Below, piece by piece: positions 1 to 36,697 of a DNA stretch of 36,697 nt (position 1 is the stretch's first letter; each line of letters starts with the position of its first letter). Position numbers and translations under genes: made by a program. Under the pieces are notes generated by a model, which saw nothing but the letters and a program-made list of their open reading frames with translations, did not search any database and was not told where the DNA came from. This DNA comes from Thermanaerothrix sp. (GTDB lineage Bacteria > Synergistota > Synergistia > Synergistales > Synergistaceae): assembly GCA_026417795.1 (NCBI GenBank), contig JAOACP010000021.1, positions 1 through 36,697 of the forward strand. The letters are read 5' to 3'.

Positions 1-19
1 AGATGTGTATAAGAGACAG
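1..19. other. Tn5/Nextera mosaic-end adapter remnant (artifact)
   Basis: Bases 1-19 read AGATGTGTATAAGAGACAG, exactly the 19-bp mosaic end used in transposase-based (Nextera) library preparation. It is almost certainly untrimmed adapter at a contig end. The first five codons of the apparent open reading frame (GTG at base 5 onward) are therefore not biological; genomic sequence begins at about base 20. Confidence 0.95.
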
Positions 20-748
20 TCCCCCAGGGACGCGGTGCGCATGGTGGCGTCGGGCAACGGTGATGTGGCGGTGGTGCCGGTGGAGAACTCCGTGGAGGGG
101 GCGGTCCACTCCACCCTGGACGGGCTCATGGAGTTCAGGGGGATCGTTTGGATAACCCGGGAGGTGCGGGCCAGGGTGGAACACTGCCTGGCCTACCAGG
201 GGGAGGATTTAAGCCGGATAAGGCGGGTGTACTCACACCCCCAGGCCATGAGGCAGTGCGACCTGTGGCTCTCCCAAAACCTGCCCCAGGCGGAGCTGGT
301 TGAGTCGGCTTCCACCAGCGAAGGGGCTCACAGGGCCCTTGAGGAGGGGGAGGCGGCGGTGTGCGGCATCCGGTGCGCCCGGGAGATGGGCTTCAAAGGG
401 ATAATACCTGGCATACAGGACTGCCCCCTCAACACCACCAGGTTCGTGGTGGTATCCCGAAGAGAACCGCGGGAGGAGCTTAAGTGCGGCGACAGGACCA
501 CCGTCCTGTTCAACCTGCCCCACCGGCCCGGCTCCCTCTGGGAAGCCCTGGGGGCCCTTAAGGAACGGGGCGTCAACCTCATGATGATCCAGTCCCGCCC
601 CTTGCCACAGAACCCCTTTGAGTACGCCTTCTTCGCGGACGTTGAAGGCGGCATGGGGGACCCAAAGGTGGAGGCGGCGGTGGACGAGATGGCCCTAAGG
701 ACCGCGGGGCTTACGGTGCTGGGCTCCTACGGCCGCCTGGAGATCTAG
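20..748 (+). CDS. pheA: Prephenate dehydratase, 5'-truncated
   Basis: Converts prephenate to phenylpyruvate in phenylalanine biosynthesis, in the cytoplasm. About 242 residues remain; the family is usually about 270-280, so roughly the first 30-40 residues are off the window. The catalytic domain shows PVENSVEGAVHSTLD and the hallmark NTTRFVVV (Thr-Arg-Phe) motif. A C-terminal ACT domain follows (TTVLFNLPHRPGSLWEAL, then GVNLMMIQSRP, where most relatives have ESRP) and should bind Phe for feedback inhibition. The true start is missing because the sequence begins with library adapter. The chorismate-mutase domain of bifunctional P-proteins cannot be excluded, because it would lie upstream. The next gene starts 55 bp downstream, with no terminator seen. 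Confidence 0.93.
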   Translation, partial: SPRDAVRMVASGNGDVAVVPVENSVEGAVHSTLDGLMEFRGIVWITREVRARVEHCLAYQGEDLSRIRRVYSHPQAMRQCDLWLSQNLPQAELVESASTSEGAHRALEEGEAAVCGIRCAREMGFKGIIPGIQDCPLNTTRFVVVSRREPREELKCGDRTTVLFNLPHRPGSLWEALGALKERGVNLMMIQSRPLPQNPFEYAFFADVEGGMGDPKVEAAVDEMALRTAGLTVLGSYGRLEI

Positions 749-3014: not shown

Positions 3015-3096
3015 CGCAAACCGCACCTCCAAACCGGGGAACTGGGAAACTCAAAAAATCCCCCGATGTCCTCGGCCTTTAAGCCCCACAGGTCAA

Positions 3097-5440: not shown

Positions 5441-5461
5441 CCCGTGATCCGCCAAGGTATA

Positions 5462-5567
5462 TCGGATTCCCTCCTTTCCAAACGCGGGAGGCCCAGGGGT
5501 TTCCCCCCGGACCCTTCGGTCCCTCCCCATAGGAATTACCCCTTAGGGAAGAGGACTCGGAGGCCGT
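5462..5567 (-). ncRNA. Moco/Tuco-like riboswitch in the tupA leader
   Basis: On the minus strand the leader begins about 7 bases after a good -10 box. It shows conserved-looking strings that I associate with the molybdenum/tungsten cofactor (Moco/Tuco) RNA: CGGCCTCCGAG at the 5' side, GGGCCTCCCGCG, and GGAAAGGAGG at the 3' side. CCTCC (5563-5559) pairs with GGAGG and CGG pairs with CCG to form P1. Internal hairpins include GGACC/GGTCC closed by a GAAG-like loop, GGGG/CCCC around GGAAA, and a CTCTTCCC/GGGGAGG arm. A terminator follows before tupA. The family assignment is from memory of the consensus and needs a covariance search. The structured leader itself is strongly supported. Confidence 0.6.
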
Positions 5568-5572
5568 TATTC

Positions 5573-5600
5573 AATATACCACATGCCAAAGCCCAGTCAA
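5573..5600 (-). promoter_or_regulatory. Promoter of the tupABC operon
   Basis: Minus-strand -35 TTGACT (5600-5595), 16-bp spacer, -10 TATATT (5578-5573). Transcription should begin near 5566, exactly at the 5' edge of the riboswitch-like structure. It sits in the gap after the GntR gene stop (5613), so tup transcription can be independent of it. Confidence 0.75.
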
Positions 5601-29325: not shown

Positions 29326-29465
29326 GGTTTTTCGGAATAAACTTAATTTTCTATTACGGTTTTTGAGTGTTAACATGAACGAAAGACCCCTTGCCCTCAC
29401 GGCGGCGCCGCTTTGGCCGCCGCAGGCGGGGAGTTGTTTTAGAAGATGTAAAACTTAAAAACTTA

Positions 29466-29566
29466 AAGGCCCGGCTGTTTCAGGAAGTCCGGTGGGAATC
29501 CGGCGCAGCCCCGCTACGGTATGGACGGTTATGGCCGTCTAAGCCCGACACTGGCGCCTGGGCCTT
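29466..29566 (+). ncRNA. Cobalamin riboswitch controlling btuB
   Basis: The conserved B12 core is present: GGAAGTCCGGTGGGAATCC followed by GGCGCAGCCCCGCTACGGT, and a B12-box-like GACACTGG near the 3' end. P1 closes as AAGGCCC (29466-29472) with GGGCCTT (29560-29566). A terminator follows before the TonB-dependent receptor, so binding of adenosyl- or methylcobalamin should shut off btuB. Confidence 0.93.
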
Positions 29567-29615
29567 GAGTTGCGTCCACCCCTCGAGGGCGGGGGAGGGC
29601 GCCGTTTTGCGTTTT

Positions 29616-36334: not shown

Positions 36335-36535
36335 CCAGGCTCCCCCCGGGTTTTCTGGCTTGCGGGCCGCGGGGTCTTGTCCGGAGCTGCGGCACGGGGC
36401 CGCCGCTTTTGACCCGTCGGCTTGCTTACAGTAGCGGGGCTGCCCCGGATTCTCACCGGGTTGCCCCGAGGGGCCGTCGTATTTTTTGTATGTCCTTTTG
36501 TCTTTGCGACGTTGATCCGCCTCGGGGGGCTTGGG
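36335..36535 (-). ncRNA. Cobalamin riboswitch controlling the btuFDC-exbBD-tonB operon
   Basis: On the minus strand: GGTGAGAATCC followed by GGGGCAGCCCCGCTACTGT, a P6-region arm, and a 3' B12 box AAGCCAGAAAACCC. P1 closes as CCCAAGCCCCCCG (near 36534) with CGGGGGGAGCCTGG (near 36340). It is preceded by a consensus promoter and followed by an intrinsic terminator, so high cobalamin should switch the operon off. Confidence 0.93.
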
Positions 36536-36589: not shown

Positions 36590-36623
36590 CGAACTTATCG
36601 GATAAAGTGGGGTTTGGCTGCAT

Positions 36624-36685
36624 GTTGCCTCTCTTAAGAATCTAAACGAACGAGACGGGTTGCCTCATGTAAAAATCTAAACGAA
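36624..36685. repeat. Two imperfect 27-bp direct repeats, 35-bp period
   Basis: Read on the minus strand, both copies (36685-36659 and 36650-36624) share TTCGTTTAGATT at one end and GAGGCAAC at the other, 23 of 27 bases identical, separated by 8 bp. They lie 35-96 bp upstream of the btuF operon -35. The window ends 12 bp later, so further copies may be cut off. Confidence 0.75.
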
Positions 36686-36697
36686 GGCAGGGATCTT

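Follow-up and report, generated by a model that had tools for sequence, protein, structure and literature searches.

The window analysed here, 36,697 bases long, is the entire contig C21 of a draft genome of 1,920,509 bases in 139 contigs. At its left end, a pheA reading frame stays open as far as base 2. We conclude that window bases 1-19 are an artefact, a sequencing adapter rather than bacterial DNA, and consider it virtually certain that they are a mosaic end left from a Nextera-type library.

A mosaic end at the contig start

Window bases 1-19 (forward strand) read AGATGTGTATAAGAGACAG, which has 0 mismatches to the Tn5/Nextera mosaic end (ME), as the initial annotation had claimed, and this is the sole ME site in the window in a search allowing up to 3 mismatches. 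A passage of PMC8269240 prints this 19-base string as the Tn5 mosaic end. Base composition predicts 4e-8 exact sites in the window and 2e-6 in the 1,920,509 bases of the genome, which rules out a chance occurrence at 1-19.

Comparison with a related genome, one of the checks proposed in the initial annotation, separates these 19 bases from what follows. When 20 relatives were searched with window bases 20-760, four matched, the best being G002 and G001, two congeneric genomes of one contig each. The G002 match begins exactly at window base 20 (79% identity over 732 of 741 bases) and does not continue through 1-19, beneath which 4/19 bases are identical; each of the nine next 19-base blocks has 13-19/19 identities. 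An exact ME is found neither in G002 nor in G001.

As judged from translation and from the G002 comparison, bases 2-19 (forward strand) supply false codons in frame with pheA. The open frame from base 2 reads DVYKRQ-SPRDAV..., and the frame from the GTG at base 5 reads MYKRQ-SPRDAV... The MYKRQ N-terminus is therefore artificial, as had been suspected, since it is encoded by the adapter where G002 homology is lacking. DVYKRQ is known as a translation of the Tn5 end from insertion mutagenesis, in a passage of PMC11075570. Bases 1-19 are to be masked, and the significance of the finding is one of quality control only.

Mosaic ends are confined to contig ends

We screened the parent assembly for the adapter, as had also been proposed, with two queries: the ME 19-mer, allowing 2 mismatches at most, and the core, which is the last 12 bases of the ME without mismatch. 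The 19-mer screen found 26 perfect copies of the ME and a single copy with one mismatch; the core screen returned 30 sites, all at contig ends, including four MEs cut to 16-18 bases. In total, 31 contig ends carry an ME (17 left ends on the forward strand and 14 right ends on the reverse strand), so that the genome has 30 such ends besides the start of C21. All 31 MEs point outward, and the exact 12-base core is absent from the contig interiors of the whole 139-contig assembly.

These ends differ in how far the adapter extends. The contig stops flush after the 19 ME bases at 20/31 ends, one of them the mismatched copy; the ME is shortened at 4/31, and 7/31 extend 2-18 bases beyond it. Six ends with 10-18 outer bases contain a piece of TCGTCGGCAGCGTC in three cases and of GTCTCGTGGGCTCGG in three, which we take to be the Nextera read-1 and read-2 arms (three ends per kind: C1 and the left ends of C39 and C48; C28, C15 and the right end of C48). 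The seventh extended end, that of C36, has two outer bases only, too few for an arm to be assigned. Exact MEs, outward placement at contig ends and outer arm pieces, together with the Tn5 target preference described below, are the features of a Nextera/Tn5 adapter.

The target preference was assessed by scoring the 9 genomic bases inside the ME at all 31 ends against the Tn5 target consensus, which we assumed to be GNTYWRANC, at the junction and at 199 other offsets. The mean score at the junction was 3.81, a value reached by 0/199 of the other offsets (mean 2.36, maximum 3.06). G occupies position 1 at 16/31 ends (p = 0.012) and C position 9 at 18/31 (p = 0.0006); a passage of PMC8557372 reports G and C as the edge bases of the Tn5 9-base core. 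The ME junctions look like Tn5 cuts because their inner bases fit the Tn5 consensus better than the bases at 199 other offsets do, a signal of the 31 ends taken together.

pheA is split between two contigs

Behind the adapter, window bases 20-748 (forward strand) hold the 3' part of pheA, 242 real codons and a stop, assigned by Pfam PDT and ACT matches and by identity to G002; the PDT domain is present only from profile position 29 on and is followed by ACT. The 5' part is found in the same genome at C13:50303-50650, with a CM_2 domain and 72% identity to the G002 protein. Directly after it, a reverse ME at 50653-50671 terminates C13, and the frame there closes with the false tail CLLYTS. Placed on G002, the ends of C13 and C21 point towards each other across a gap of 1 base, an estimate obtained by ungapped extension of the C13-G002 match, which ends 21 bases before the ME.

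In both relatives the gene runs unbroken across this junction in one frame, of 374 codons in G002 and 356 in G001. The full-length G002 copy of the gene, which the initial annotation named pheA, has the Pfam domains CM_2, PDT and ACT, the domain set of a bifunctional chorismate mutase/prephenate dehydratase. Since the missing 5' part lies on C13 and ends in a reverse ME, pheA is a single gene for such a bifunctional enzyme that is split by an assembly break, and the 19 bases are not the beginning of the gene. The truncation also affects family assignment: against the NCBIfam prephenate dehydratase cut-off of 219, the truncated PheA frame scores 208.7 bits (below) and the full-length G002 protein 219.8 (just above). 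The gene should be annotated as partial at its 5' end; to call it a short prephenate dehydratase that begins with the GTG at base 5 would be wrong.

Origin of the adapter and of the break

The simplest reading of the ME-bearing ends is that they would be coverage edges, where the last reads run into the adapter. At C21, Tn5 transposase severed the chromosome immediately ahead of window base 20 and joined the ME there. A sequencing read would then have passed the end of a short fragment, entered the adapter and been incompletely trimmed, read-through and failed trimming both being inferred, and the assembler closed C21 inside the adapter without joining it to C13. This simple account leaves two observations unexplained, namely the flush stops after 19 ME bases at 20/31 ends and the gap of 1 base between C13 and C21 in G002 coordinates, where a single Tn5 event would leave a 9-base overlap. 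We found no evidence opposing an adapter origin.

A variant of this account places a Tn5 hot spot at the break, so that the adapter branch would outweigh the true path of the assembly graph and leave two contigs where one could have been assembled. We regard the variant as possible, if rather doubtful. Mapping of the first 100 genomic bases of each of the 31 ends on G002 (40 of 93 candidates scored) gave places for 30/31 ends, with none for the C62 end and two for the C25 end. Six facing pairs (12 ends) lie 1, 6, 29, 48, 493 and 1010 bases apart after ungapped extension to the ME, which, as a bare count, would speak for the variant; among the places listed, the remaining 18 ends that could be mapped face no other ME-bearing end closer than about 1 kb. 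The clear Tn5 consensus signal also fits a hot spot, as does a passage of PMC11536531 in which adapter-bearing contigs could be merged after trimming. Against it, no two of the 31 ends have a facing overlap of 7-59 bases, so none share the 9 bases, and low coverage alone would yield the same picture.

Far less credible is that bases 1-19 belong to the chromosome itself, or that they are one end of a Tn5/IS50 element resident in pheA, a reading to which we assign next to no weight. The natural Tn5 outer end, in the sequence that we assumed for it, is only 3 positions off the ME, but the window matches the ME with 0 mismatches and the outer end with 3. A resident element also fails to account for MEs at 31 contig ends with the exact core at no internal site, for the presumed kit arms outside the ME at six ends, and for the lack of an exact ME in the same-genus relatives; nor is there a 9-base target duplication, since a search for overlaps of 7-59 bases between the end of C13 and the start of C21 found none. 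Sequence and placement thus rule out a resident Tn5/IS50 in pheA. A search for the Tn5 transposase dimer domain (PF02281) gave no match in the genome, nor in any of 14 control genomes.

Even less probable is that the strain is a mutant whose pheA carries a laboratory transposon of the EZ-Tn5 type, from which the ME would come. Although engineered Tn5 can yield an in-frame DVYKRQ, as in a passage of PMC11075570, a mutant would be expected to carry one or few insertions and not 31 ME-bearing ends, six with library arms outside, and no 9-base duplication is common to C13 and C21.

Effect on predicted proteins

At the 31 ends we counted open frames of at least 100 codons, which are not gene predictions. 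At 20/31 ends, one or more inward frames of at least 100 genomic codons are open from within the ME. In 15 of these 20 the frame spans the whole ME and begins with (D)VYKRQ or MCIRDR/S; in the other 5 the ME contains a stop, and the frame that starts past it includes no more than the last two ME codons. Outward frames of at least 100 codons enter the ME at 22/31 ends and acquire the tails LSLIHI, CLLYTS or VSYTH, some of them shortened. A full-text literature search for six adapter peptides matched 4 papers, each with VYKRQ and none with another of the six; a passage of one of them concerns an insertion mutagenesis method (PMC11075570). The concern that adapter peptides may seed false protein families is a reasonable warning.

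Other features of the contig

The right end of C21 breaks in a different sequence. Window bases 36621-36697 form a repeat, of which up to 77 bases recur at 96-100% identity at 11 other places in the genome and about 60 bases at 75-79% identity at 11 further places; at least 15/22 copies are no more than 57 bases away from a contig end. In G002, the two forms of the repeat flank a 414-codon frame in facing orientation, at a distance of 1.4 kb from one another. This frame contains an integrase core (rve), and its best NCBIfam match, below the cut-off, is of the IS481 type. The right-end repeat is probably a multi-copy insertion sequence at which C21 breaks. In G002, the insertion sequence directly follows frames whose translations resemble an interrupted methyltransferase subunit of a type I restriction-modification system.

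Rfam matches identify three riboswitches in the window: a molybdenum/tungsten (Moco) riboswitch at 5455-5574 (reverse strand), an AdoCbl riboswitch at 29455-29606 (forward strand) and a cobalamin riboswitch at 36348-36466 (reverse strand). The Moco riboswitch lies upstream of frames at 4463-3097 on the same strand, which by their translations would encode ABC-transporter-like proteins.

Mosaic ends in genome collections

Within the phylum, 3 of the 185 genomes searched contain an exact ME, including the source genome; another has 26 sites and the third a single site. Nor is the ME rare in two wider collections, in which the ends of the scanned stretches were taken as contig ends. In viral contigs, at least 120 stretches carry at least 127 ME sites. 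Among the matches listed, 125 of 127 sites point outward within 100 bases of the stretch end, 1 lies at 101 bases with a primer, an index and an arm outside it, and 1 is internal, beside two Ns and with an arm. In species genomes, at least 119 stretches carry at least 133 sites, and among the matches listed 123 of 133 point outward within 200 bases of the stretch end (121 within 100); of the other 10 sites listed, 8 adjoin runs of at least 9 N, 1 (L270) adjoins a primer, index and arm, and 1 (L264) neither.

The L264 site, at 3073-3091 (reverse strand), is an exact ME at an internal position of an uncultured Myxococcales contig, with neither Ns nor a Nextera arm adjoining. The flank beside it looks palindromic, and this internal ME is perhaps a chimeric join.

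Adapter contamination of microbial genome databases, concentrated at contig ends, has been described by Moeller et al. 2024 (PMC11536531), a passage of which gives the TruSeq adapter in 1110 of 15,657 assemblies at p < 0.01, with about 157 expected. Among the matches listed, our search of the literature on adapter contamination found that paper on microbial databases and none on assemblies that carry the Nextera ME; its main text contains neither 'Nextera' nor 'transposase'. Contamination of contig ends by adapters is already known as a kind, and counts of its Nextera variant may be less complete. On balance, we favour the view that Nextera ME contamination is common in collections of species genomes and viral contigs and uncounted in PMC11536531, that it adds DVYKRQ, MCIRDR/S, CLLYTS, LSLIHI and VSYTH to the termini of predicted proteins at a frequency that justifies a routine screen, and that trimming followed by rejoining could close some of the breaks.

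The start of C21 has the same 19 bases as the ME of tagmentation in PMC8269240, with no difference seen in the passage that prints it. The genome differs from the case in PMC11536531 in the adapter itself, as the passages in question count a 12-base TruSeq adapter whereas the C21 genome carries the Nextera ME. The two are alike, as far as those passages describe, in the position of the adapter at contig extremities, in its opposite orientations at contig starts and ends, in the arm pieces that adjoin it and in the merging of contigs after trimming.
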